Source of the DNA: Desulfobotulus mexicanus
GTDB taxonomy: Bacteria > Desulfobacterota > Desulfobacteria > Desulfobacterales > ASO4-4
Length of the DNA: 64,000 nucleotides
Assembly (NCBI RefSeq): GCF_006175995.1
Contig: NZ_VDMB01000001.1
Location: 124,001-188,000 of the forward strand
Direction: 5' to 3'
The position numbers and the translations under genes are program-made. The notes beneath the pieces were generated by a model that saw only the letters and a program-made list of their open reading frames with translations, had not been told where the DNA came from and ran no database searches. Of the stretch, positions 35,458 through 51,767 are shown piece by piece; position 1 is the first letter of the stretch, and each line of letters starts with the position of its first letter.

Positions 35458-38400
35458 ATGCAGAGAATACTGGATTGCCGCCTTCCCCTGCTTGCCTGTC
35501 TGCCCCAGAAAGTTTTCAACCTCCGCTACATGGAAAGCCTGCACAGGGCAGGGGTCCTTCCGGTTCTGGATGCGGAGTTCATGGACACAGAAACTATTCT
35601 GGAGGCAGGCAGGACGCTGGATGAAAAAAATATCCTCTTTGCCATCCGGGTTCCCCTTTCCCGAAAAGACCTTCTGGAAAAGCTTAAAAAAAATCCCCCC
35701 CGATATCTGGAAGCCCTCATTTTTTCCTATGATTTTGAAGATGCCCTAAATAATCTGGATTTGAAAGCTTGGCCCGTCAAGCGCCTTCTGGAGCTGAAAC
35801 ACACGGGCCATGGCCCAGAGCTTTCCCGCATGGGCATCCATGGGCTGGTACTGAAGGGACTTGAGGCCGGAGGTTCCGTTTCCCGGCACACGGCCCTCAT
35901 TCTCATGCAGGAATATCTTGAGACAAGTGATCTTCCCCTTTTCATCCACGGGGGTGTGGGCATGCACACGGCAGCGGGGTTTTTCAGTGCAGGAGCCAGC
36001 GGCCTTGTGCTGGATGCCCAGCTCTGGCTCTGCCGGGAATCCCCCCTTGGGGAGAATTTCCGCAAGCTTTTGAACGGCATTGAGGATCTCGACACCCTGC
36101 TGCTGGAAGGCCCGGAAGGCTCCCGTTACCGTTTTTTTGCAAGGCTCGGCACCCGTGTGGCCCAGGATCTGAAAAAGCTGGAGCCCCGCTTTGTGCTGGG
36201 TGCGGATCAAAAAAGCGAAGAAGCCCGCATCCTTTCTGAAACCCTGAAGGAAAAAATGGCCGATCTTTCCGATGGGGCTGCGGAAAGTGTGCAGAGTCTT
36301 TTCTATCTGGGTCAGGATGCCGTGTTCGCAAGGCATTTCCTTCGCAGGGGCGAGGGTGTGGAAGCCATGATCCACGGGCTTTTTGAGGAAGTGAGAAAAA
36401 GCCTTGCCGTTTTAGAAACGGCCGACCCCTTACGGGCCGGAAGTCCCCTGGCAAAAGAGCACGGGGTGAGGTACCCCATCATGCAGGGCCCCATGGCCAA
36501 CATCAGTGATAACGTGGACTTTGCCGAGAAGGTGGCAGAGGCCGGAGGCCTTCCCTTTTTTGCCATGGGCAGCCTGCCTGTTCCCTTGGCGGAAACTATG
36601 CTGGAAAAGGCTTCGGAAAAGGGCATTCCCTGCGGTGCGGGGCTCATCGGCATTGAGGCCTTCAACCGCCGCCTTCCCGAGCACATGGATCTTACCCGCA
36701 AATTCAACATTCCCTTTGCCCTCATTGCAGGGGGAAGCCCCGCCCAGGTGCGGGAGCTGGAAGCCTCCGGTATCCGCACCTACCTGCATACCCCCGCCAC
36801 CCGCATGCTGGAAAATGCCCTTGTCGGCGGGGTGTCCCGTTTCATTCTGGAAGGTACGGAGTGCGGCGGGCATGTGGGCTCCCTCACAAGTCTTGTGCTC
36901 TGGGAAATGGGCACGGAGCTTTTGTCTCAGCTGGATGACGCTGCATTGCAGGAAAAAACCCTTGTGTATGCAGGGGGCATTTCCACGGAAGCCGCCTCCC
37001 ATTTCATCTCCGGTATGGCAGCAGGCCTTTGCCAAAGGGGTCTTAAGATAGGCATTCAGGTGGGAACGGCCTATCTTTTCACCCGTGAGATTGTGGAAAC
37101 GGGTGCTCTCCATACCCGGTACCAGAAGGAAGTGCTGCACCAGAAGGAAACTCAGGTGATTGGCCGCACCGTAGGCCTTCCCTGCCGCACCGTGGAAAGC
37201 CCCTTTTCCGTCAGGATGCGGGAGCTGGAGCACAGCCGCATGGAAAAGGGCGATCCCCTTTCCGGCCGCAAGGATGCCTTTGAAAAGGACAACATGGGCT
37301 CCCTTCTCATTGCGGCCAAGGGCATGGTGCCGGATTTTTCCGGAAAAAGTGTCGAATGCCGGATGCTGGAAGAAGAGGACATCTTTGAAAAGGGCAACTT
37401 CTGCGTGGGCGATTCCCTGGTCTTTTTCAAAGACACCTGCACGGTGAAGTCCATCCACGGCCGTCTTTTTGACAACAAGACGGCCCTGCGGCGGCATCTT
37501 GATACCCTGGAACGGCTTACCCGTCCCGATGGAGAAATATTTGATGAAATTGCCGTGGTGGGCATGGGCTGCGTGCTGCCGGATGCTCCTTCGCCGGAGG
37601 CTTTCTGGGAGAATATCTTACACCGCCATGTTTCCATCCGGAAGATGGAGGAAAGCCGCCTGCCTTCCCTCTATGTGAGTGAGGATAAAAGTGCGGAAGA
37701 TAAAAGTTATACCTCCGTGGCCGCAGATGTCCGTGATTTTACCTTTGATCCGGTAAAATACGGGCTGGATGCAAAAACCGGAGCCCGCCTTTCCCGCAGT
37801 CAGCAGCTGGTTCTGGAAGCCGCGTATCAGGCGGCCAGATCCGGTGGTTTTTCTGTGCAAAACAGTAAGGGGAGTAAAACCCTTCCTTTAGAAACGCCTG
37901 TGATTCTGGCCTCCTGTCTTGGCAATGAGCTGACCCATGATCTGCACATGAAATACTGGACTCCGGAAATCCTTTCTGTCCTGAAAGCTTTGCCTGAGTT
38001 TGAGACCCTTGAAGAAGGGGAAAAGACGGCTCTGGTGAAAGGGATCAGAGAAAGCCTTGCGGGAAAATTTCGTAATGAGCCGCCGGATACGGCTGTACTC
38101 AACATTGAGGCCAGCCGGGTGGCCGCCTGTCTGGGAGTGGAAGGCCCCAACTATCTCATCGATGCGGCCTGCGCCACCAGCTTTGCGGCCCTGGACTGCG
38201 CCATGCAGGAGCTTCTTTCCGGCAGGGCCCAGGCGGCCATCGTGGGAGGCATCAATACCAACCTCGCTCCGGAAACCTTTGTGGGCTTTTCCAAGATGGG
38301 GGCATTGTCTTCCAAAGGCTCCTGGCCCTTTGACGGCCGGGCCGACGGCTTTGTGCTGGGCGAAGGGGCTGTGGTTTTTATCCTGAAGCGCATGCGGGAT

Positions 38401-41400
38401 GCTGTGGCCGAAGGGGATAAAATCTTTGGCGTGATCCGGGGCATGGGAGCCAGCTCCGATGGCAAGGGCAAGGCCATTGCCGCCCCCAATGTGAAGGGGC
38501 AGATACTGGCCATGGGCCGGGCCTTTGAAAACATGAAACGGCCCCTTTTGCCCGAAGCCGTCACCTTTCTGGAAGCCCATGGCACCTCCACCCGCATGGG
38601 CGATGCGGCAGAACTTGAAAGCGTGAAGGGTTTTTACGGCAAAAACCCAAGCCTTGGGGTGAGTTCCGCCAAAAGTCAGGTGGGTCACCTTCTGGGAGGG
38701 GCCGGAGCCGCAGGGCTTTTAAAGGCCCTTCTGGCCCTGAACCACGGTATTCTGCCGCCCAACGGAGATTTTGAGGAACTGGGTCCGGTGCATGATCTTT
38801 CGGGAACGGGCATCTTTGTGGTAAAGGATGCCTCTCCCTGGCCCGTAGAAAAAGACCAGCCCCTTCTGGCCGCCGTCAGCGCCTATGGTTTCGGAGGGAT
38901 TAACTACCACTGCGTATTGGAAGCCCCGGCCTCAGACTACAGCCCCCTTAAGAGGGAGGTATTTCCCGACCTTTCTTTTGATCCCAATGATCAGCGCATC
39001 GTGGTGGCGGGCATGGGGCTGGTGCTGCCCGGAACTGAAGATGAAGACAGCTTCATGGAAACCATGGCTTCGGGAAAAAGCCTTCTCACGGAAAAAGCCC
39101 ATCTGGGTTTTGATGCAAAGGCCTATGCCGAGGAAGACAGGGAATACCGCATTCCCTATCTCAAGGCCGGTCTGTGCAGGGATTTCACCTTTGATTCCAT
39201 GCGTTTTCGCATTCCGCCCAAAAGCCTTGCCTTCATCGACAGGGGCCAGCTTCTCGCCCTTACGGCGGCGGACCGGGCCATCCGTGGGGCGGGTCTGGAA
39301 GAGGAGCTGAAAACACCTGCCAACCGGGTCGGGGTGATGCTGGGTGCCATATCCAGTACCCGCCATGTTGAAAACATTCTCCGCATCCGCCTTGATTTTG
39401 TGGCGGCCTGTATGGAAAAAACCAGGGGGCTTTCGCCGGAAAAAAGCGCAAAGCTGGCGGAAGCCCTGACCACCGTCTTCCGCAAGCGCCTGCCGCCCAA
39501 TACGGAAGACACCACGCCGGGGCTGCTCACCAATATCGTGTCCGGCAGGGTAGCCAATGTGCTGAACTGCAACGGACCCAACTTCACCGTGGATGCGGCC
39601 TGTGCCTCTTCGGGCTTTGCCCTGCGGGCAGCCATGATGCACCTTGTGTCCGGCCGCTGCGATTATGTGATCAGCGGCGGGGTGGATTCGGCCTTTTATC
39701 CTGCGGCCCTTCTGGTCTTCAAGCGTCTCGGTTTGCTTTCCAAGGAGGACACCCGGTTCTGGGATAAGGGCAAGTCTCAAGGGGTGAACCTCTCGGAAGG
39801 AGCTGCGGTGCAGGTGCTGACCACTTACGCCAAGGCAAAGGAAAAGGGCCTTCCCATTTTAGGAGAAATCCGCAGCATTGCCATGGCCTCCAGAGCAGGA
39901 GAAAGTGTTTTCGCCCTTTCAGAAAATCTGCTGGCAAGGGAAATGGGGGCAGCCTACCGGGAAGCGGGCATGCTGCCTTCGGACCTGCACCACCTCGATC
40001 CCTTCGGCTTTGGTCACAGAATTCCCGACAGCATGGAAAAACGGGCCGTGCACATGGGCCTTGACGGCGCATCGGGCATTTCCTTTGGCAATATCAAGCC
40101 GGAATACGGGTATTACAAAGGGGCCAATCCCGCCATCATCCTTTCCCGGCTCCTTCTCATGCAAAAAAACAGAAAAAGACTGCCCCATCACAGCTTTGAT
40201 CCGGAAACCACCCTCATGGAAGCAGGCGGCCCTCTGGTGAGCCCGGATGAGGCCGAAGACTTTGGTCCGATGCGAAGACCGGCCCTTGCCACCAACCTTC
40301 ATGGCTTTGGGGGCAACCATGGGCATATGGTAGTTTCTGCCCTGCCTCCCTTCCTCCGGAAAGAAGAGGTCGGAAAAGAAGAAAGGCTGGCCGATTCCCT
40401 GCAGCCCTCTCTGGCCCTGCCAGCCACCCTTAGCGGAATGTCCGTGCTCCTTTCCGGTCAGGGAGCCCAGAAGGTGGGCATGATGAAGGATCTCTACGGA
40501 GCCTATCCTGAAATCCGCAGCCTCGGGGATCAGGCGGAAAGGCTCTTTCAGGCAAAACGGGGAAAAAGTCTCTTACGCCTGATGTTTGAAGGAAAGGGCG
40601 GGGATCTCAACCACACGGAAAATACCCAGCCTGCGGTATTTCTGGCCTCTGCCGCCATCCACAGCCTGCTTGTGAAAAAGGGCCTGAAGCCCGATGCCTG
40701 GCTGGGCCACAGCCTTGGGGAATATACGGCCCTCTTTGCCTCGGGCGCTTTAGATTTTGATGCGGCCTTTTCTCTGGTGCTCACCCGCTCTTCTCTGATG
40801 CAGCGGGCCGCAGGGGACTTTCCCGGCAGCATCATGGCTGTCTTCAAGGGGCCGCAGGAGGTGGCGGATCTGATTGCTGCCTTTAATGCCGAAGGGGTGT
40901 ACATCGCCAATAAGAATGCCCCCGGTCAGACCGTGGTTTCCGGCGAAAAAATGGCCATGCTGCGTTTCGGGGAGTTTCTCACCCAGAAAAGTGTGCTTTT
41001 CCGCAAGCTGAACCTTTCCGGAGCCTTTCACACGCCGCTCTTTGCCGATGCCGCCAAAGGCATGGCCAAGGCCCTCGGCCCCTTGCATTTTCAGACCAAA
41101 GCCTTGCCCCGTATCATCTCCAATGTCACGGCAAAACCCTATCCCGAAGATGAGAACGCGGTGAAGGAGCTTCTCACCCGGCAGATGGTTTCTCCCGTCG
41201 AGTTCATGGAAGGGGTGCGCCATCTCTATGATCAGGGCTGCCGCTCCTTCCTTGAGGTGGGGCCGGGCAATCTTCTGGCCCGTCTGGTGGAAAGCCACCG
41301 CCTGGAAGGGTTGGATCTGCGCTCTGCCGTTGACCCCAAAAAGGGTGAAAGCGCCAGCATGGAGACCCTCTTCACAAGCCTTGGCAGGGAAAAAGGCTTG

Positions 41401-44400
41401 TCTGAAAAAAGAGAGGTGCCGCCACAGACGAAGAACCATAGCGCCAGAAATCAGGCCGATATCAAGGGGAGTTTCACCATGAAAGAGGATGAGGACAAAG
41501 GGTTTGCCGCATTTCTGGAGGCCAACCGCAGCCGCATGGAAGCCGCCCTTTTGGAGGAATATGAGAAGGAGCAGGATGGTCTTCGCTTAAAAGCCTATGA
41601 AAATTTTGGTTTCTACACGGGTGCCGTTTCCATTGCTGGTGTTTCCGTGGGCCTTCCCGGAAGCGGCAGGGCCGTTTTTTCCGATGATCATTTTGACAGC
41701 CTGATACAGGGGCAGAATTTCATTGAAGCACTGGGGCAGGAAGAAAAGGAAGCCATGTTCCAGCGCAATATCCGCAGGCTGCACAAAACGCCGGAAGGCA
41801 ATGCACGTTTTGTGGACATCGCCTCCACGGACGAGGTGATTCATCTTGCGGGAAAACTCGGCTTCTTTGATCCGGAAGGGGAGTACGGTCTGGAAAAGGG
41901 GCAGGACATCAGCATTGCCCTTGCCATGGCCGCAGGTCTGGAAGCCCTGAAGGATGCCCGCATTCCCCTGCTGGAGGGCCAGAGCAAAGCAGGCTCCCGC
42001 CTTGCCGGAGAGGAGCTGGCCCTGCCTGCTTCCATGCAGGAAACTACCGGTGTCATCTTCACCGGCCTTTTCCCCGGATGGGAAACCCTCATCCATGAAA
42101 TGGAGGCCTTCCAGCAGCACCGCTATCAGGAAGGGCCGGGACGGGCCCTTGAAAGTCTCTACTATGATCTCATGGAAAACATCGGCGAGCGCAATCTCAA
42201 ACAAAGGGTGGCGGGCTGGTTCCACGCCATCCGTCCCCTCTGGGAGAAGAAGGAGGAGTACCGCTTTGACAGTACCTTCCTCGATAAAATCACCCCCCTT
42301 GCCTCCGCCCACTTTGCCAAAATGATCCGGGCCCGTGGTCCTAATGTGCACTTGAGCGGAGCCTGTGCTTCCACCACTCAGGCCATTGCCGTGGCCGAAG
42401 ACTGGATTCGCAGCGGCCGCTGTGAGCGGGTGGTGGTGATTGGTTCGGAAACGGCCACGGCATCGGGTCAGGGCCCTTGGATCAGTGCGGGATTTTTAAG
42501 CCTGGGCGCTGCCTCCATTGAAAAGGAGATTTCCAAAGCAGCCAAGCCCTTTGATGCGGATCGCAACGGCACCCTGTTGGGTGCCGGAGCCACGGCCCTT
42601 GTTGTGGAAAGAAGGGACCGTATCCGGGAACGCGGCCTTGAGGGGCAGGCGGAAATCCTTGGCACCTTCCTTGCCAATGCGGCCTTCCACACCACCCGCA
42701 TTGATGTGCCTTATCTGGCAGGAACCATGGCCCGTTTTGTGCGGCAGGTGGAGGCCCGCCATGGTCTTGATGCGGAAAGCTACGCTTCCCGCATGGTGTT
42801 CATGTCCCACGAAACCTTCACCCCTGCGCGGGGCGGCAGTGCGGATGCGGAAATTGAGGCCCTGCGTGCGGCCTATGGCCGGGATGCGGGCAAAATCACC
42901 ATCACCAACACCAAGGGCCTCACGGGCCATACCCTGGGGGCGGCCATTGAAGACGCGGTCATGGTGAAAGCCCTGCAAAGGGGCCAGACCCCGCCCGTGG
43001 CCCACCTGAAGAAGGTGCCGGAGCATTTCAGCGATCTGAAGTTCAGCCGTGGAGAAAAGGGAGACTTCCAGTACGGCCTGCATTTTTCCGCAGGTTTTGG
43101 CTCCCACTTTGCCCTGCTCATGGTGAAGCGCACGGAAGAACGGGCCACGGAAAATAACGCCGCCTATGAGGCCTGGCTCTCTGCCATCTCCGGCATGGAA
43201 AAGCCCGACCTCAAGATGAAAAACCGGGTGCTGGTGCTGGCAAGCGCTCCGGGTTTTTCGGGAGAAAGTCTTCCCGTCCTTACAAAGGAAAAACCCCCTG
43301 CCCCTGTTATGAAGGCAAAGGCTGAGCCGAAGGTCTCTTCCCGGGTGAAGATTCTGGAAGAAATCCGGAACATTCTTTCCGAGCAGACGGGCTATGGCAC
43401 GGACATGCTGGCGGAAGATCTGGATCTTGAGGCGGATCTCGGCATTGATACGGTAAAACAGGTGGAAATTTTCTCCAAGGTCATGGGGCATTTCGGCCTT
43501 GGAACCAAAGAGGACGCGCCTTTGCGGGAGCTTTCCACCTTAGGGAAAATTGCGGACTACATTGCGGCCCAGTCGGGCGCAGTATCCCTTGAAGAAAAAG
43601 AGGTGGCAGAAATTTCTGCCGCAGGTGTTTCCGGGAGAGAGGGTATCCTTTCAGAAATCCGGAACATCCTCTCCGAACAGACGGGGTATGGCACGGACAT
43701 GTTGGCCGAAGATCTGGATCTTGAGGCGGATCTCGGTATTGATACGGTAAAGCAGGTGGAAATTTTCTCTAAGGTCATGGGGCATTTTGGCCTTGGGGCC
43801 GAAGAGGATGCGCCTTTGCGGGAGCTTTCCACCTTAGGTAAAATTGCGGACTACATTGCGGCCCAGTCGGGCGCGGTATCCCTTGAAGAGAAAGAGGTGG
43901 CAGAAGTTTCTGCCGCAGGTGTTTCCGGAAGGGAGGCCATCCTTTCAGAAATTCGGAACATTCTTTCCGAGCAGACGGGCTATGGCACGGACATGCTGGC
44001 CGAAGATCTGGATCTTGAGGCGGATCTCGGCATTGATACGGTGAAACAGGTGGAGATTTTCTCTAAGGTCATGGGGCATTTTGGCCTTGGGGCCGAAGAG
44101 GACGCGCCCCTGCGGGAGCTTTCCACCTTGGGTAAAATTGCCGACTACATTGCGGCCCAGAAGGGGGCCAGCGCTCCCGAAGAAGACGGAAGGGGGGAGA
44201 GCCTTGTTTCTGAAAGTCCCGGAAGCGAAGAAGATCCTTCTCTTCTTCCGGCAGACCCTAGCGGCAGTGAAAAAGGGCTTTTCCGCTTTGTGCCGGATGT
44301 ACGCAAAGCTCCTGCGGAGGCAGGCCCCCGTTTTGGTATTTCAGGTCGTAAGGTGCTGGTGACCTTAGACGATCAGGGCCTTGCCGCACCCGTGATGGAA

Positions 44401-46737
44401 GGCCTTGAAGCCGCAGGTGCCGTGATTCTCACCGCAGGCCGGGACAGGGGCGATTATCTCCTTGAAGACCGGGATGCGGAAAAAAGCGCCCTCCTTTTCG
44501 AAGAAATTGCCAAGGCCCATCCGGATCTCTGCGGCCTTGTGCTGCTCCATCCCTTGAATACGGAGGTGCCAGAAGGCCGTGAGCGCATGCCCGCCGCCCT
44601 CTTTACCGCCATCCATGCCCTGCGGGAGTCTTTAAACCGGCAGGGAGCCTTCATTGCCATGCCCGCCTTCCAGTCCGTGATCTTTCCCACGGCCATGGGC
44701 ATCCGGGAAGGCGAGATGCGTCCGGACCCGGTGCAGGCGGCCTTTTCCGGTTTTCTGAAAAGCCTTGCCCGGGAGTTTCCCCATACCCGCATCAAGGTTA
44801 CGGATTTCGGGGACAAGCGCTTTGACGGCCCCTCCATGGCCAGCCGCTTTGTGAAGGAACTCCTCACCGGCGATGGCCGGGTGGAAACGGGCTTTGTGGG
44901 GGAAACCCGCTTTCTGCCCACCCTCCTTGAAAAAAAGGTTCAGGGGCAGAAGAACATCCTTTCCGGCTGCACCGTCCTTGTCACCGGCGGGGCAGGGGGC
45001 ATTACCTTTGAGATGGTGAAGGCCCTTGCGGAGGAAGAAAAGGATGTGGCCTTCATCCTTGTGGGCCGTTCGGACTTAAAGGATCTCACTCCGGAGACCG
45101 CAGGTCTTTCTTTAAAGGATCTCATGGCCCGTCTGGCGGATAAAATGCCGGGCCTGTCTCCCCTTCACCTGAAAAAAACCGCAGAGCGCATGCAGGGCCT
45201 GCACCGCACGGCGGAGAGTCTCCGTCTTCTGGAGGAAAAGGGCGTTTCCGTACGCTATGTGTCTGCGGATGTGACGGATTCTGCCGCCGTTCAGAAACTG
45301 GCCGAAAGCTTCCCGGAGGTGGATGCCATCATCCACGGGGCAGGTGTGGAGGAATCCCAGGTCTTTGATAAGAAAACTCTGGATTCCTTCCTCCGGGTCT
45401 TCACGCCCAAGGTCAGGGGTATGGCCCATCTGCTGAAAGCCTTCTCCGGCCATGATCTCAAGGCGATTTTCGCCTTTTCCTCGGTCACGGCCCGTTTTGG
45501 CAATGCCGGTCAGTGCGATTACACCGCAGCCAACGACATGCTGGGCAAAATGGTCTTGGCGGAGCAGGTGAAGCGGCCCCACTGCGTCACCAAGGTGCTG
45601 GCCTGGACAGCCTGGGAAGGCACGGGCATGGCCACACGGGGTTCTGTGAAAACCGTGCTGGAAAGCCGGGGCCTCACCTTCCTGCCCTTAAAGGCGGGAA
45701 TCCGCTTCTTCCTTGGGGAGTGCCGCAGCCCCGAACCCTGCGAGGCCGTGTTCACGGGCAAAGACCGGGCCTTTGATCCCGATGGCCTGCTGCCCCTTGC
45801 CGGTCAGGGGCCGGTGCTGGATGCCTTTCTGGATGCAGGGCTGGAGCTGGAAGGTGAAACGGCCCGTTTTGTCCGCACCCTGACTTTGGAGCGGGATCTT
45901 TTCCTCAAAGATCACAGTCTGGACGGCGTTCCCCTTTTCCTCGGAGCCACGGGTCTTGAAACCCTGGCCGAGGCGGCCCTTCAGGTGAGCGGAAGGCGCT
46001 ATGTGACGGAAATCGAGGAATTTTCCATTCCCTATGGGATCAAGCTTTTGAAAAACCGTTCCAAACGGTTGGAAATCCGGGCCAAAGGCCCTGAAGCGGA
46101 TAGCGTGGCTGTAGAAATGCTTTCTTCCTTCACACGGCCCGGTTCTTCGGAAACCACGGAAACCCTGCACTATACGGGCAGGGTGCAGACGGCGGATCTG
46201 CGGCCCGGCGTTCAGCTCATGGTCATTCCCGATCTGCCGGGCCTGCGCCACAAGGGCAGCCTCGGGGATCTCATCTACCGGCCCACACGGCTTTTCATGG
46301 ACGGGGTTTTCCGCAGCATTGAGTCCGTGGCGGGTTTTGACGGCAGGCAGCTTGTCACCCTGATGCGGGATCCGGGGCAGGGCTTTTTCTTTGCCGGTGT
46401 CAAGGCACCTGATTTCCGAATCCCTGTGGTGCTGCTGGATGCCATGTTCCAGACCGGAGGCCTGTTCAACATGCTGGGAAAGGGTACGCCTGTGCTGCCC
46501 TCTTCCTTTAGTCGGATGCGGATTTTTGATATGCCCGAAGCCCGTACGGCCTATGTCTGCGTGACGGAGAAAAAGGCGGAACTGGAAAAGACGGATCTCT
46601 TTGACATGGCCCTTGTGGATGCCAACGGCCGCCTCATGGTGCGGGTGGAGGATTTTCAGATGATCCGCATTCCTGCGGCGGCGGGATTTTCCCTGGAAGG
46701 GGAGGTGGAGGCCTTTGGGGTGAAGAAGGTTTCTTAG
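35458..46737 (+). CDS. Giant multidomain polyketide/fatty-acid synthase-like protein (PfaA/PfaD-like architecture)
   Basis: This is a single 3,759-residue reading frame. By residue: 1-320 looks like a TIM-barrel half (FIHGGVGMHTAAGFFSAGAS). From 330 to 650 is a nitronate-monooxygenase/PfaD-like flavin enoyl reductase (YPIMQGPMANISD, ALIAGG, EGTECGGHVG). From 695 is KS1 with Cys905, His1041 and His1077. From 1178 is KS2 with Cys1382 but Phe1516 and Tyr1552 in place of both His. From 1660 is an acyltransferase (Ser1752 in GHSLGE, His1858 in GAFHTP, malonyl-like). From 2055 is KS3 with Cys2303, His2451 and His2491. Carrier-like domains are centred at 2665, 2763 and 2861. A ketoreductase begins near 3170 (TGGAGG, Ser3342, Tyr3355, Asn3359). 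A dehydratase-like double hot-dog has His3486 and Asp3661. The start has AGGAG 11 bases upstream. It looks like PUFA-type synthase genes pressed into one chain. The product is unknown. No thioesterase or phosphopantetheinyl transferase is near. Confidence 0.9.
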   Translation: MQRILDCRLPLLACLPQKVFNLRYMESLHRAGVLPVLDAEFMDTETILEAGRTLDEKNILFAIRVPLSRKDLLEKLKKNPPRYLEALIFSYDFEDALNNLDLKAWPVKRLLELKHTGHGPELSRMGIHGLVLKGLEAGGSVSRHTALILMQEYLETSDLPLFIHGGVGMHTAAGFFSAGASGLVLDAQLWLCRESPLGENFRKLLNGIEDLDTLLLEGPEGSRYRFFARLGTRVAQDLKKLEPRFVLGADQKSEEARILSETLKEKMADLSDGAAESVQSLFYLGQDAVFARHFLRRGEGVEAMIHGLFEEVRKSLAVLETADPLRAGSPLAKEHGVRYPIMQGPMANISDNVDFAEKVAEAGGLPFFAMGSLPVPLAETMLEKASEKGIPCGAGLIGIEAFNRRLPEHMDLTRKFNIPFALIAGGSPAQVRELEASGIRTYLHTPATRMLENALVGGVSRFILEGTECGGHVGSLTSLVLWEMGTELLSQLDDAALQEKTLVYAGGISTEAASHFISGMAAGLCQRGLKIGIQVGTAYLFTREIVETGALHTRYQKEVLHQKETQVIGRTVGLPCRTVESPFSVRMRELEHSRMEKGDPLSGRKDAFEKDNMGSLLIAAKGMVPDFSGKSVECRMLEEEDIFEKGNFCVGDSLVFFKDTCTVKSIHGRLFDNKTALRRHLDTLERLTRPDGEIFDEIAVVGMGCVLPDAPSPEAFWENILHRHVSIRKMEESRLPSLYVSEDKSAEDKSYTSVAADVRDFTFDPVKYGLDAKTGARLSRSQQLVLEAAYQAARSGGFSVQNSKGSKTLPLETPVILASCLGNELTHDLHMKYWTPEILSVLKALPEFETLEEGEKTALVKGIRESLAGKFRNEPPDTAVLNIEASRVAACLGVEGPNYLIDAACATSFAALDCAMQELLSGRAQAAIVGGINTNLAPETFVGFSKMGALSSKGSWPFDGRADGFVLGEGAVVFILKRMRDAVAEGDKIFGVIRGMGASSDGKGKAIAAPNVKGQILAMGRAFENMKRPLLPEAVTFLEAHGTSTRMGDAAELESVKGFYGKNPSLGVSSAKSQVGHLLGGAGAAGLLKALLALNHGILPPNGDFEELGPVHDLSGTGIFVVKDASPWPVEKDQPLLAAVSAYGFGGINYHCVLEAPASDYSPLKREVFPDLSFDPNDQRIVVAGMGLVLPGTEDEDSFMETMASGKSLLTEKAHLGFDAKAYAEEDREYRIPYLKAGLCRDFTFDSMRFRIPPKSLAFIDRGQLLALTAADRAIRGAGLEEELKTPANRVGVMLGAISSTRHVENILRIRLDFVAACMEKTRGLSPEKSAKLAEALTTVFRKRLPPNTEDTTPGLLTNIVSGRVANVLNCNGPNFTVDAACASSGFALRAAMMHLVSGRCDYVISGGVDSAFYPAALLVFKRLGLLSKEDTRFWDKGKSQGVNLSEGAAVQVLTTYAKAKEKGLPILGEIRSIAMASRAGESVFALSENLLAREMGAAYREAGMLPSDLHHLDPFGFGHRIPDSMEKRAVHMGLDGASGISFGNIKPEYGYYKGANPAIILSRLLLMQKNRKRLPHHSFDPETTLMEAGGPLVSPDEAEDFGPMRRPALATNLHGFGGNHGHMVVSALPPFLRKEEVGKEERLADSLQPSLALPATLSGMSVLLSGQGAQKVGMMKDLYGAYPEIRSLGDQAERLFQAKRGKSLLRLMFEGKGGDLNHTENTQPAVFLASAAIHSLLVKKGLKPDAWLGHSLGEYTALFASGALDFDAAFSLVLTRSSLMQRAAGDFPGSIMAVFKGPQEVADLIAAFNAEGVYIANKNAPGQTVVSGEKMAMLRFGEFLTQKSVLFRKLNLSGAFHTPLFADAAKGMAKALGPLHFQTKALPRIISNVTAKPYPEDENAVKELLTRQMVSPVEFMEGVRHLYDQGCRSFLEVGPGNLLARLVESHRLEGLDLRSAVDPKKGESASMETLFTSLGREKGLSEKREVPPQTKNHSARNQADIKGSFTMKEDEDKGFAAFLEANRSRMEAALLEEYEKEQDGLRLKAYENFGFYTGAVSIAGVSVGLPGSGRAVFSDDHFDSLIQGQNFIEALGQEEKEAMFQRNIRRLHKTPEGNARFVDIASTDEVIHLAGKLGFFDPEGEYGLEKGQDISIALAMAAGLEALKDARIPLLEGQSKAGSRLAGEELALPASMQETTGVIFTGLFPGWETLIHEMEAFQQHRYQEGPGRALESLYYDLMENIGERNLKQRVAGWFHAIRPLWEKKEEYRFDSTFLDKITPLASAHFAKMIRARGPNVHLSGACASTTQAIAVAEDWIRSGRCERVVVIGSETATASGQGPWISAGFLSLGAASIEKEISKAAKPFDADRNGTLLGAGATALVVERRDRIRERGLEGQAEILGTFLANAAFHTTRIDVPYLAGTMARFVRQVEARHGLDAESYASRMVFMSHETFTPARGGSADAEIEALRAAYGRDAGKITITNTKGLTGHTLGAAIEDAVMVKALQRGQTPPVAHLKKVPEHFSDLKFSRGEKGDFQYGLHFSAGFGSHFALLMVKRTEERATENNAAYEAWLSAISGMEKPDLKMKNRVLVLASAPGFSGESLPVLTKEKPPAPVMKAKAEPKVSSRVKILEEIRNILSEQTGYGTDMLAEDLDLEADLGIDTVKQVEIFSKVMGHFGLGTKEDAPLRELSTLGKIADYIAAQSGAVSLEEKEVAEISAAGVSGREGILSEIRNILSEQTGYGTDMLAEDLDLEADLGIDTVKQVEIFSKVMGHFGLGAEEDAPLRELSTLGKIADYIAAQSGAVSLEEKEVAEVSAAGVSGREAILSEIRNILSEQTGYGTDMLAEDLDLEADLGIDTVKQVEIFSKVMGHFGLGAEEDAPLRELSTLGKIADYIAAQKGASAPEEDGRGESLVSESPGSEEDPSLLPADPSGSEKGLFRFVPDVRKAPAEAGPRFGISGRKVLVTLDDQGLAAPVMEGLEAAGAVILTAGRDRGDYLLEDRDAEKSALLFEEIAKAHPDLCGLVLLHPLNTEVPEGRERMPAALFTAIHALRESLNRQGAFIAMPAFQSVIFPTAMGIREGEMRPDPVQAAFSGFLKSLAREFPHTRIKVTDFGDKRFDGPSMASRFVKELLTGDGRVETGFVGETRFLPTLLEKKVQGQKNILSGCTVLVTGGAGGITFEMVKALAEEEKDVAFILVGRSDLKDLTPETAGLSLKDLMARLADKMPGLSPLHLKKTAERMQGLHRTAESLRLLEEKGVSVRYVSADVTDSAAVQKLAESFPEVDAIIHGAGVEESQVFDKKTLDSFLRVFTPKVRGMAHLLKAFSGHDLKAIFAFSSVTARFGNAGQCDYTAANDMLGKMVLAEQVKRPHCVTKVLAWTAWEGTGMATRGSVKTVLESRGLTFLPLKAGIRFFLGECRSPEPCEAVFTGKDRAFDPDGLLPLAGQGPVLDAFLDAGLELEGETARFVRTLTLERDLFLKDHSLDGVPLFLGATGLETLAEAALQVSGRRYVTEIEEFSIPYGIKLLKNRSKRLEIRAKGPEADSVAVEMLSSFTRPGSSETTETLHYTGRVQTADLRPGVQLMVIPDLPGLRHKGSLGDLIYRPTRLFMDGVFRSIESVAGFDGRQLVTLMRDPGQGFFFAGVKAPDFRIPVVLLDAMFQTGGLFNMLGKGTPVLPSSFSRMRIFDMPEARTAYVCVTEKKAELEKTDLFDMALVDANGRLMVRVEDFQMIRIPAAAGFSLEGEVEAFGVKKVS
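43361..44160 (+). repeat. Three 294-bp tandem units encoding near-identical carrier-like domains
   Basis: Equal sequences begin at 43361, 43655 and 43949, so the period is exactly 294 bp (98 codons). Each unit encodes a carrier-type helix bundle (ILSEQTGYGTDMLAEDLDLE) and the motif ADLGIDTVKQVE, where the Ser that carries phosphopantetheine in other carriers is Thr. The units are almost identical, so duplication or gene conversion is recent. Confidence 0.95.
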
Positions 46738-48124: not shown

Positions 48125-49825
48125 ATGGAAAAACTAGAAAAGAGAAAGAAACAAGCAGAGCAAGGTGCAGGTTTTTTTGGAAAAAAGCTCCTGGCCCTGT
48201 CTTCGCTTTTTTTTCTTCAGGGTCCCATGGGTTTTGCCGGACTGGGGCTTGGAATGCTGGGTCTGGGGGCGGCTGTGCTTTTGCTGGCGGTTTCGGGCTG
48301 GTTTATCACAGCAGCAGGGGTGGCGGCACTTTCCCTTGCTACCCTGCACAGCTTTAATTATCTACAGCCAGCAGCCCTGATCCGTCTTCTGGCCATTAGC
48401 CGTACCCTGGCCCTTTACGGGGAGCGTATTGTTTCCCACGATGGTATTCTTAGTCTTCTACAGCGCTTGAGGCTCTGGCTCTTTGACGGACTTTCCAGCA
48501 TGAACCGTTTTCGTATGGCAGGTTTTGGCAGCGGTGAGCTGATGCAGCGTATGCTGGCGGATATGGATCGTCTGGATCAGTGGCCCCTGCGGGGGCTTGC
48601 CCCATGGGCCTGGGCCACAGGGCTCTCTGCCCTTGTCTCTGCTCTGCTGTTCTGGCTGCAGCCTGATCTTGCAGTGATTTTTCTTCTTTTTATCATTGCC
48701 GTATGGGGGCTTCTGCCCTGTTTCATACTGCTGCCGGTTCTTCGATGTACCCGTTCCCATACCCGGATGGAGGGAAAGCGCAGGCAGTTTCTCCTTGAGA
48801 CTCTGGCAGGTCTCATCACCCTGCGTACCACGGGTGCTTTTAGGGCCAGAGGTAAAGCTCTGGAAGCCATGGATAGCGAAATCCTCGGGAACCAGTGGCG
48901 TATACAGGTGTTTGGTCTTGTCGCCCAGCTTTTTATTCTGCTGAGCCTTTCCGCAGTGCTATGGATGGTGGTGTTCCATGGGGGAAGGGCCGTTGAGGCC
49001 GGTCAGTTTTCTGGGGCTGTGCTGGTGGGTATCGCCTGCGTGATTCTGGGACTGACGGAAGTGTTTTTGCCATTATCTGCAACCTTTCAGTCACTGGGTT
49101 TCACCCTTGAAGCCAGGGACCGGATCACTGATTCTGTGGCAGGAGCCAGGGAAATAAAGGGCGGTGTGAGATCCCTGCCACAAAATCTTTCCTTTTGCCT
49201 TGAAAATGTAAGTGCCCGTCAGAAAAATGCGGCAACGGGACCGCAGGGGGTTTCATTGACCCTGCATAGGGGCGACAGTCTCTGGATAGAAGGGCCTTCG
49301 GGCTGTGGAAAGTCCACTCTGGCTGCGGTTATGGCGGGCTGGCTTTCTCCGGAAGCAGGGGAGGTTCGGGTAAACGGTGTAGCCCTGATTGATGTTGAGG
49401 AAGGCTGCCTGCGCCGGCATGTGGGGCTTCTGGATCAGGATGTGCATCTTTTTCCCATGATGCTGGGAGAAAATCTCCGGCTTGCCAGCCCCCTTGCCGG
49501 GGATGATCTTTTGATGGACCTGCTTGATGAGGTGGCCCTTGGCGACTGGGCAAGGGAGCTTCCCGAAGGACTGAATACGCCCATCGGGGATTACGGGACA
49601 GGGGTTTCAGGGGGCCAGGCCCGGAGACTGGCCCTGGCCCGGCTTCTTTTAATGGAAACGCCGGTTCTTATTCTGGATGAACCCTTTGAAGGTCTGGATG
49701 CTGACACGGCGGATGCCCTGCTTACCATGCTGCGCAGAAGACAGAAGGATGGGATTCTCATTGTGATCAGTCACCAGCATCTGAAGGGGAGCTTCACCCA
49801 TTATCTTCGTCTGTCTCCAGCATAA
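48125..49825 (+). CDS. cydC: CydC-like ABC exporter subunit
   Basis: This 566-residue half-exporter has about six transmembrane helices and the CydC pattern YGERIVSHDGILSLLQRLRLWLF, then a C-terminal ATPase with Walker A EGPSGCGKST, signature VSGGQARRLALARLL and Walker B PVLILDEPFEG. CydDC exports cysteine and glutathione to the periplasm for cytochrome bd assembly. No cydD or cydAB lies in the window, so either the partner is elsewhere or it works as a homodimer. Its 3' part is duplicated at 51329-51767. Confidence 0.85.
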   Translation: MEKLEKRKKQAEQGAGFFGKKLLALSSLFFLQGPMGFAGLGLGMLGLGAAVLLLAVSGWFITAAGVAALSLATLHSFNYLQPAALIRLLAISRTLALYGERIVSHDGILSLLQRLRLWLFDGLSSMNRFRMAGFGSGELMQRMLADMDRLDQWPLRGLAPWAWATGLSALVSALLFWLQPDLAVIFLLFIIAVWGLLPCFILLPVLRCTRSHTRMEGKRRQFLLETLAGLITLRTTGAFRARGKALEAMDSEILGNQWRIQVFGLVAQLFILLSLSAVLWMVVFHGGRAVEAGQFSGAVLVGIACVILGLTEVFLPLSATFQSLGFTLEARDRITDSVAGAREIKGGVRSLPQNLSFCLENVSARQKNAATGPQGVSLTLHRGDSLWIEGPSGCGKSTLAAVMAGWLSPEAGEVRVNGVALIDVEEGCLRRHVGLLDQDVHLFPMMLGENLRLASPLAGDDLLMDLLDEVALGDWARELPEGLNTPIGDYGTGVSGGQARRLALARLLLMETPVLILDEPFEGLDADTADALLTMLRRRQKDGILIVISHQHLKGSFTHYLRLSPA

Positions 49826-49834
49826 CGGGTTTCG

Positions 49835-49928
49835 GCGCCCTGGCAAATGCCGCTGTTATTATACATCCGAGGCAGGCTAAGCCTGCAAGCAGAAGGGCCT
49901 TTTCAAATCCTATGGCAATGGCCAGCCT
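49835..49928 (-). pseudogene. Duplicated 3' fragment of the OFA-type MFS transporter gene
   Basis: About 90 bases just after cydC match the end of the MFS gene at 54331-54424 with only a few differences (GCCCTGGCAAATGCCGCTGT and ATCCGAGGCAGG are shared). It has no start and stops abruptly in unrelated sequence, so it is a remnant. Confidence 0.85.
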
Positions 49929-49941
49929 GTTGAAAATCCAT

Positions 49942-50067
49942 ATGCTTTTTTCAAAAATGAATCTTAAACCAGAAGAAATAGCCGTAGGTATTGGGCTTAC
50001 CCCCGAACAGGTAAAGGCCGTCAGGGCAGGGGGGCTGATCCTGTGGCCTCCTATCTATAAGGTTTAA
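49942..50067 (+). pseudogene. C-terminal remnant of an Rpn-family gene
   Basis: The frame reads FSKMNLKPEEIAVGIGLTPE, closely like FSELNIKPEDIAHGVGLTPE at the end of the intact Rpn gene next door, but no nuclease domain precedes it. It is a decayed duplicate, and the stop is at 50065-50067. Confidence 0.75.
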
Positions 50068-50246
50068 ATCCTGTTTTCCGGGCGGTATCGGGCGGAGTGA
50101 TCTTTTGGTGGCTGTTTCTTGCGCTTTATGATTCAGGGGATTATAATTTTAGATAATAAAGGTTATCGGCCCATGGTTAATGCAAGTCTGTAGCCATGCA
50201 GGATTTTTTACTGTAAGAATAGAGTAATAGAAATGAGAGGAAGCCA

Positions 50247-51188
50247 GTGGGCAACCATGATATTTTTTTCAAGAAGATTTTAGATGTAGAGGGCCATGCA
50301 GAGGAACTGGTACGGTCATCACTGCCGTCTGCCATACTTGAGGGCTTGGATCTGAGTACCCTGAAGGAGGAAAAAGGCTCATTTTTAGGAGAGGAGCTGT
50401 CAGAGTATTTTTCTGATCTGCTTTACACATGCCAGTTTAAAGGTACGCTGATCCGTATAGCCCTGCTTTTTGAGCATAAAAGCTATGTGGATAATGATCT
50501 TCCTTTTCAGATTCATTTATACACGGGTGGTTTCTGGGAACGCTGCCGTAAGCAGAAGATAGAACGAACCCCCATAATTCCCATAGTGATCTATCATGGA
50601 GAAAGAAAATGGCAGCCCGGTCTTCTCAGTGACTGTTTTAAAGACCTGCCCCCCATGATCAAGCCCTTCATCCCGGATTCAGAGTACATTTTTGTGGATC
50701 TTTCAAGCTGGCAAGATGAAGATATCAAGAATAAGCTCTTTGCCATGGTTTCCATGAAGTTCTGCATGCTCATTTTTAAGAACGTTTTTGATCCTGATAA
50801 GCTGAAAGACAATATAAAGGAATATTTTGAGCTGGCATCCTCATTGTTTGAAGATGAAGATGGTCTCAAGATCATCAAAAATGTCATAGAGTACATTTTT
50901 AAAGCCACAGATCTTCAGCCTGAATATGTGGCTGAGACGATAGGTAGTGTAAGCCTGAAAGGAAAGGAGCTTGCTATGACTACAGCGGAAAGACTTATAA
51001 ATGAGGGCCGTAATGAAGGTGTATATAGCGAGAAGTACCAGACCATTATGCGCTTCTCAGAACTGAATATCAAACCTGAAGATATTGCCCATGGTGTTGG
51101 ACTTACACCAGAGAAGGTGCGGGCTGTTATTGCCGCAGGGGACAAGGGGCTGGATCTTCTCATAGGAGAGGATACTACCAAACATTAA
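50247..51188 (+). CDS. Rpn-family PD-(D/E)XK nuclease (recombination-promoting, transposase_31 type)
   Basis: This 313-residue protein has the Rpn/YhgA layout. The N-terminal nuclease core has DIFFKKILDVEGHAEELVRS, a Glu-X-Lys in LLFEHKSYVDND, and PIIPIVIYHGERKW. The C-terminus has the repeat-like helices MRFSELNIKPEDIAHGVG. The family is known to cleave DNA and raise RecA-independent recombination in E. coli. The start is GTG with AGAGGA about 6 bases upstream. It lies among duplicated scraps of cydC, of the MFS gene and of another Rpn gene, consistent with local rearrangement. Confidence 0.88.
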   Translation: MGNHDIFFKKILDVEGHAEELVRSSLPSAILEGLDLSTLKEEKGSFLGEELSEYFSDLLYTCQFKGTLIRIALLFEHKSYVDNDLPFQIHLYTGGFWERCRKQKIERTPIIPIVIYHGERKWQPGLLSDCFKDLPPMIKPFIPDSEYIFVDLSSWQDEDIKNKLFAMVSMKFCMLIFKNVFDPDKLKDNIKEYFELASSLFEDEDGLKIIKNVIEYIFKATDLQPEYVAETIGSVSLKGKELAMTTAERLINEGRNEGVYSEKYQTIMRFSELNIKPEDIAHGVGLTPEKVRAVIAAGDKGLDLLIGEDTTKH

Positions 51189-51328
51189 GCCCTTCTGATT
51201 TTGATTTTTACCCATCCATGACCGGACGCAGCCTTCACATGGGTTGTGCCCGGTTGTTGTCTTGTGGGGTATTCTGTGGCTCTTGTGCCTGGCCTTGTAT
51301 CCAACAGTTCTTCCGTATCACCCCCCCC
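51189..51328. other. Junction sequence between the Rpn gene and the cydC copy
   Basis: No match to any window sequence was seen. A run of eight C lies at the very edge of the cydC duplicate (51321-51328) and may mark the breakpoint. Confidence 0.5.
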
Positions 51329-51767
51329 GATTGATGTTGAGGAAGGCTGCCTGCGCCGCCATGTGGGGCTTCTGGATCAGGATGTGCATCTTTTTCCCAT
51401 GACGCTGGGAGAAAATATCCGGCTTGCCAGCCCCCTTGCCGGGGATGATCTTTTGATGGACCTGCTGGATGAGGTGGCCCTTGGCGACTGGGCAAGGGAG
51501 CTTCCCGAAGGGCTGAATACGCCCATCGGGGATTACGGGACAGGGGTTTCCTGGGGCCAGGCCCGGAGACTGGCCCTGGCCCGGCTCCTTCTCATGGAAA
51601 CGCCGGTTCTTATTCTGGATGAACCCTTTGAAGGTCTGGATGCGGACACGGCGGATGCCCTGCTTACCATGCTGCGCAGAAGGCAGCAGGAGGGGATTCT
51701 CATTGTGATCAGTCACCAGCATCTGAAGGGGAGCTTCACCCATTATCTTCGTCTGTCTGCCTCATGA
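51329..51767 (+). pseudogene. Duplicated 3' fragment of cydC
   Basis: These 439 bp match 49387-49825 with no gaps and few substitutions. It encodes the ATPase half without Walker A or membrane part, so it cannot work as a transporter. The signature VSGGQ has become VSWGQ, a sign of relaxed selection. The open frame is a leftover. Confidence 0.92.

Follow-up and report, generated by a model that had tools for sequence, protein, structure and literature searches.

The locus and its threonine carriers

The window, by which we mean the whole stretch of DNA analyzed here (64,000 nucleotides of Desulfobotulus mexicanus, contig NZ_VDMB01000001.1, positions 124,001 to 188,000), encodes in a single gene a 3759-aa synthase. 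Its domains are an enoyl reductase (ER), three ketosynthases (KS1, KS2 and KS3), an acyltransferase (AT), three acyl carriers in tandem, a ketoreductase (KR) and a dehydratase (DH), with coordinates collected in Table 1. In acyl and peptidyl carriers the attachment Ser is usually taken to be invariant. All three carriers of this synthase have Thr at that site. Each reads LGIDTVKQ(VE), starting at residues 2661, 2759 and 2857, so that Thr2665, Thr2763 and Thr2861 stand exactly where the original prediction had placed them, and the same Thr codon is used in all three. Across the 79-aa domain, carriers 2 and 3 are 92-94% identical to carrier 1; for the 98-aa units, which include the linkers, the identities are 94% (1-2), 80% (1-3) and 84% (2-3).

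By other measures these are ordinary carriers. The Pfam PP-binding family (PF00550) matches all three, with 28.1, 27.7 and 27.7 bits for a cut-off of 20.8. An AlphaFold model of the carrier (pLDDT 87) has a helix at 37-50, and the Thr at 37 is the start of helix II. In a Foldseek search with this model the top matches are bacterial ACPs (TM 0.85, rmsd 1.3-1.5), among them the Thermotoga maritima ACP (PDB 6lvu, 6lvt; TM 0.85), which in the 6lvt alignment has Ser at the site where the window carriers have Thr. The window carrier domain is thus predicted to keep the ordinary carrier fold.

The same genome provides controls. It has nine PP-binding matches, three with Thr, every one of them in the 3759-aa synthase, and six with Ser. 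Three of the Ser carriers (LGIDSIKRVE) belong to a separate PfaA-like open reading frame (ORF) of 2235 aa (L001, 7939..14646, minus strand), adjoined by a gene that by reading is PfaD-like; the others are one stand-alone ACP (LGADSLD) and two GGDS carriers.

Table 1. Features of the synthase gene, in window coordinates.
Feature	Position	Strand	Details
Single-gene synthase, 3759 aa	35458..46737	+	order ER - KS1 - KS2 - AT - KS3 - 3 carriers - KR - DH
Enoyl reductase-like domain, FMN-type (NMO/FabK-like)	36463..37257	+	residues ~336-600; Pfam NMO; TIGR03151 FabK-like stretch 336-595
KS1	37546..38955	+	Cys-His-His motifs DAACATS, EAHGTST, SQVGHLL
KS2	39025..40377 (limits approximate)	+	DAACASS retains Cys; both His motifs gone (DPFGFGH, PEYGYYK)
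AT domain	40450..41295	+	motif GHSLGEY
KS3, FabF-like, family-defining	41608..43131	+	Cys and two His: GACASTT, MSHETFT, GLTGHTL
Carrier 1	43342..43578	+	Thr2665, codon ACG 43450-43452, opens predicted helix II
Carrier 2	43636..43872	+	Thr2763, codon ACG 43744-43746
Carrier 3	43930..44166	+	Thr2861, codon ACG 44038-44040
Ketoreductase (KR)	44971..45618	+	Pfam
Dehydratase-like end (PKS_DH_N / PS-DH)	45829..46683	+	Pfam

A family of synthases with threonine carriers

Does the Thr belong to one genome, or to a family? We collected homologues using as bait the KS3 domain that precedes the carriers, and we kept the carriers out of the query to avoid a selection based on their motif. A scan over 84,980 species genomes gives at least 568 relatives. 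The best 80, which we took, come from Desulfobacterales, Spirochaetes, Chloroflexi, Elusimicrobia, an Archangiaceae metagenome-assembled genome (MAG), Thermoplasmatota, and Heimdall- and Lokiarchaeota; the nearest record among them is Desulfobotulus alkaliphilus (L038), whose synthase is 93.8% identical in nucleotides and 95.4% in amino acids. Searches of whole phyla with a KS3 profile find members in 6 of 395 genomes of the window's own phylum (G000, G186, G102, G448, G466 and G522), in 20 of 119 for the phylum of an Asgard archaeon (G307), 16 of 301 for that of an Anaerolineae genome (G315), 53 of 149 for Elusimicrobia (G317), and 10 of 198 for Spirochaetes (G301). At most 30 loci were taken per profile search, which for Elusimicrobia means 30 of 53. 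The profile separated the family more cleanly than an earlier search of the window's phylum with a 1639-aa query, in which PfaA-like proteins were mixed with true relatives and, apart from the window, just G186 and G102 proved to be of this type.

A carrier hidden Markov model whose seed included Ser and Thr types alike was then run on 169 KS3 loci, removing repeats by their local DNA. Where PF00550 has its serine, Thr stands in 371 of the 377 distinct carrier domains, as it does in the three window carriers, and these Thr domains spread over Desulfobacterota, Spirochaetota, Chloroflexota, Elusimicrobiota, Thermoplasmatota and Asgard archaea. Of the other six, three have Ser, and Ala, Asn and Glu occur once each, in domains that look degenerate. 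(A further 14 rows with a gap at the site, mostly truncations at contig ends, are excluded from the 377.) Carrier rows come from 143 loci, and 137 of those have Thr alone. What these figures count is domains, not independent events, and close relatives within genera are over-represented among them. The Thr codons are ACG (198), ACC (82), ACA (52) and ACT (39). A similar search for PfaA-like carriers reports Ser in 62 of 62; two other rows with Thr in that search stem from a duplicate of the L037 locus.

The signature of the family extends, as far as its alignment indicates, beyond a single residue. In 331 distinct rows of at least 60 aa, the Thr column holds Thr in 328, a conservation similar to that of the flanking DLGxD, and three residues further on there is a Gln in 325. 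The two positions are coupled: in 337 of 337 carriers with Thr, the residue at +3 is Gln or Met. At that position the family's three Ser carriers have Ala, Ile or His, and PfaA-like Ser carriers have Arg, Lys or Leu (51 of 51). The signature can also be searched for directly in DNA. A codon-degenerate pattern for DLG[IVM]DT[IVM]KQ occurs at 14 places in 6 of the 395 genomes of the phylum, with none for the reversed control, and since these six genomes are exactly the six that carry a KS3 synthase, a chance occurrence of the motif is ruled out.

Two simple explanations were rejected along the way. Decay of the site does not fit a Thr that is fixed while its codon spans all four synonyms and conservation persists in the remaining columns of the family, and a single-genome oddity does not fit Thr carriers in KS3 relatives across several phyla. 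The original prediction had read the Thr as a conserved variant that might define a family. The census and the alignment agree with the first part, and the census, the coupled signature and the DNA pattern with the second; homologues with Ser elsewhere and Thr only in this synthase, the outcome that would have spoken otherwise, are not what the census contains (Thr 371, Ser 3).

In a midpoint-rooted KS3 tree, whose root position is open, Thr is found throughout (19 of the 138 tips have no carrier label, being duplicates that were removed, sequences that end before the carriers, or stand-alone KS3 proteins). The Ser exceptions are of two kinds. The synthase of Candidatus Heimdallarchaeum endolithica (L090) has Ser, Thr and Ser within one protein, and a single PPTase (phosphopantetheinyl transferase), which is fused to it; its closest KS3 relative, adjoining it in the tree, carries Thr (L095). 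The other exception is a KS3-carrier protein of differing make-up from a Thermoplasmatota MAG (L117, 731..5248, plus strand), which reads DSVT and lies in a row with genes that by reading resemble prenyl-diphosphate synthases and alpha-oxoamine synthases, a neighborhood that hints at another use of KS3.

We also observe KS3 as a stand-alone protein without carriers (L054, 9902..11659, and L105, 743..2380, both on the plus strand), and a Thermoplasmatota synthase in which Thr carriers flank the ketosynthase block, with two ahead of it and three behind (L102, 5092..14310, plus strand). In Elusimicrobia, many of the genomes that keep the KS3 synthase are just 1.3-1.7 Mb, which suggests for it a core role there, and not an accessory one.

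Transferases, neighboring genes and known synthases

We scored the linkage of synthase and PPTase in the 40 loci, from 82 examined, that include a complete synthase ORF plus 1 kb on each side. In 8 of them the C-terminus of the synthase carries a fused Sfp-type PPTase, and in another 10 such a PPTase lies nearby in the locus. L110 and L111 are examples of relatives with a PPTase gene downstream; the matching ORF of L113 has 632 aa and is only partly PPTase. The catalytic residues D, E, E, K and E are invariant in 15 aligned sequences.

As an example, Candidatus Harpocratesius repetitus, an Asgard archaeon, has a 3794-aa protein (L108, 5036..16420, plus strand) with ER, KS, AT, KS3, five carriers, KR, DH and PPTase, to judge by its sequence apparently a self-contained fatty-acyl synthase in an archaeon. 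Its fused PPTase domain scores 61.5 bits with the ACPS family (cut-off 25), and its model (pLDDT 91) matches human AASDHPPT (2cg5) and Sfp (4mrt) with the catalytic residues kept. It differs from both in being fused to the C-terminus of a synthase, and in that the carriers it would load have Thr.

A PPTase domain fused to the synthase is the sole ACPS-family match in six of seven Asgard genomes examined (G307, G309, G310, G311, G313 and G318). All PP-binding matches above cut-off have Thr in G313 (5 of 5, all on the synthase), G310 (2 of 2) and G311 (4 of 4), and G309 has two synthase carriers with Thr and a 97-aa ORF with Glu at the site. None of these four genomes has a Ser carrier above the Pfam cut-off, thus leaving only Thr carriers for their sole detected PPTase. 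As for the rest, G318 also has a 92-aa Ser carrier, G307 is the case with Ser, Thr and Ser, and G308 encodes a second PPTase, roughly 2 kb away from a separate Ser carrier. The Harpocratesius record is a single 4.36-Mb contig and that of Heimdallarchaeum endolithica is titled a complete genome, while the other Asgard records are MAG fragments.

The synthase gene of the window stands alone. The ORFs upstream of it are, named by reading, a type IV pilus pilM-Q operon, and downstream on the opposite strand there is an MscS-like channel gene, also named by reading; no PPTase is found among the ORFs listed beside it in the window. Farther downstream (48125..51767, plus strand) the end of a gene that reads as a CydC-like ABC transporter recurs after an intervening 313-aa ORF (50247..51188) that resembles Rpn-type transposase/nuclease proteins, a layout like that of a duplication or an insertion footprint. 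Within the synthase, AT, KR and DH motifs are all present in the family alignment, and we take the KS, AT, KR and DH motifs to have their usual catalytic meaning. KS2, which has lost both His motifs, is by inference CLF- or decarboxylase-like. The first 250 residues (35458..36210) resemble, by reading only, a second FabK/NMO-type barrel, and because it precedes the one that Pfam recognizes, the ER may be a tandem pair of barrels. We see no release domain in the protein.

How does this synthase compare with those already described? Its architecture corresponds to a known kind, Types R and S of Shulse and Allen 2011 (PMC3098273). Type R is KS-MAT-CLF-ACP(3-6)-KR followed by a PPTase gene downstream, and occurs in Roseiflexus, Elusimicrobium and Acidobacteria. 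Type S occurs in Desulfobacterium autotrophicum, which lacks fabA and fabZ, and these authors suggested that it might serve there as the core fatty acid synthase. Both share with the window protein the order KS-AT-(CLF or KS3)-ACPn-KR in one gene, to which the window protein adds ER, KS2 and DH. The "CLF" of these types matches KS3 by position, although KS3 keeps the Cys and both His motifs, and the downstream PPTase of Type R has no counterpart among the listed ORFs neighboring the window synthase. We find KS3 synthases with Thr carriers in a Roseiflexus record (L106) and in a MAG labeled Desulforapulum autotrophicum (L046). The Asgard members with a fused PPTase are missing from Table 2 of PMC3098273, and the word "threonine" is absent from that paper.

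The likeness to PfaA (TIGR02813) lies in having KS, AT, tandem ACPs and KR on one polypeptide. The 3759-aa synthase scores 792.7 bits with that model, below the cut-off of 1010.1, and it differs in having ER, KS3 and DH fused into the one gene. Its carriers are 39-43% identical to those of the PfaA-like protein of its own genome, with LGIDT and Thr-Val-Lys-Gln where PfaA has LGIDS and Ser-Ile-Lys-Arg. We found no report of a natural Thr carrier in the literature, which is weak evidence since subscription papers were mostly outside our coverage. The Thr carrier would be a new variant within a known kind of synthase.

A possible role for the threonine

What we computed here is the sequence and its conservation, the predicted fold, the linkage to PPTases and the tally of carriers and PPTases per genome; from these we infer a modification of the Thr, an order of reactions and a product. 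We propose, with a probability of roughly 85%, that the Thr is where phosphopantetheine is attached, in a fatty-acyl synthase that works iteratively and reduces its chain. An Sfp-type PPTase would transfer the 4′-phosphopantetheine arm from CoA to the hydroxyl of the Thr at the start of helix II, which would make O-phosphopantetheinyl-threonine in all three carriers. This PPTase would be the fused one in some Asgard and Desulfobacterota relatives, a nearby one in others, and in the window genome the one encoded elsewhere (G000:C5). The loaded carriers would shuttle malonyl and acyl groups among KS1, AT, KS3, KR, DH and the fused FMN-type ER, and the cycle would yield a reduced fatty acyl chain. 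Because the KS, AT, KR and DH motifs together with an FMN-type ER make up a complete reducing cycle, the product is likely a fatty acyl chain, either saturated or with some unsaturation. Why Thr? We can only speculate that the phosphodiester of a secondary alcohol is less prone to beta-elimination, or that Thr and Gln may insulate these carriers from other PPTases.

Several observations weigh against this proposal. Of the 40 complete loci, 22 show no PPTase near the synthase, among them that of the close relative D. alkaliphilus, and the window genome's sole PPTase, which is Sfp-type, sits away from the synthase. Elsewhere, replacing Ser by Thr is used or reported as a way to disable a carrier: changing Ser38 of spinach ACP to Thr or Cys is reported to result in loss of function (cited in PMC9310384), and the S36T mutant of E. 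coli ACP no longer binds IscS (PMC13343975). Moreover, several of the Asgard records are MAGs, from which a PPTase or carrier gene may be absent, and Pfam may miss divergent ones.

The missing linkage is what one would expect if the Thr were modified only where a PPTase is fused or adjacent, leaving the synthase partly or wholly apo in genomes like that of the window, where the one PPTase would otherwise have to serve Ser and Thr carriers alike. We regard this as improbable, given that conservation of the Thr is independent of PPTase linkage, and that the unlinked PPTase of the window genome is 32% identical to the PPTase adjoining the synthase of L036. The defective laboratory mutants, for their part, agree with Thr carriers that are never modified and serve as spacers or as scaffolds for docking, the chemistry being left to a separate carrier with Ser; such Ser carriers do exist in the window genome, one of them a stand-alone ACP. 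The original prediction had considered such scaffolds, or a chain carried by other chemistry. We find little room for either, as dedicated PPTases are fused or adjacent to the synthase, Ser and Thr are mixed within one Asgard synthase, and four Asgard genomes (G309, G310, G311 and G313) have no Ser carrier above the cut-off and yet have a PPTase fused to the synthase; the DLGxD and KxxE surface that flanks the site is also near-invariant. That another residue of the domain took over the attachment is a logical possibility for which nothing was found, and the least credible of all: no replacement site is visible in the family alignment, where the only further Ser/Thr columns above 90%, T15 and T70, lie away from the start of helix II and are also Thr or Ser in PfaA-type carriers that retain the normal Ser.

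Attachment to the Thr being in our view the best account of the data, a broader claim can be made with less assurance. We lean toward O-phosphopantetheinyl-threonine being natural, ancient and common, fixed at the root of this bacterial and Asgard family, and toward the one-polypeptide synthase with its own Thr-loading PPTase being, in some Asgard, the only phosphopantetheine carrier system of the genome.

If the proposal is true, Thr carriers would break the textbook Ser rule, the range of carriers that PPTases accept would be wider, and the annotation of carriers as active or dead would change. A Thr carrier would perhaps also be orthogonal to Ser systems. Asgard archaea are the lineage closest to eukaryotes, and an apparently self-contained fatty-acyl synthase in them would bear on how lipids are synthesized in that lineage.
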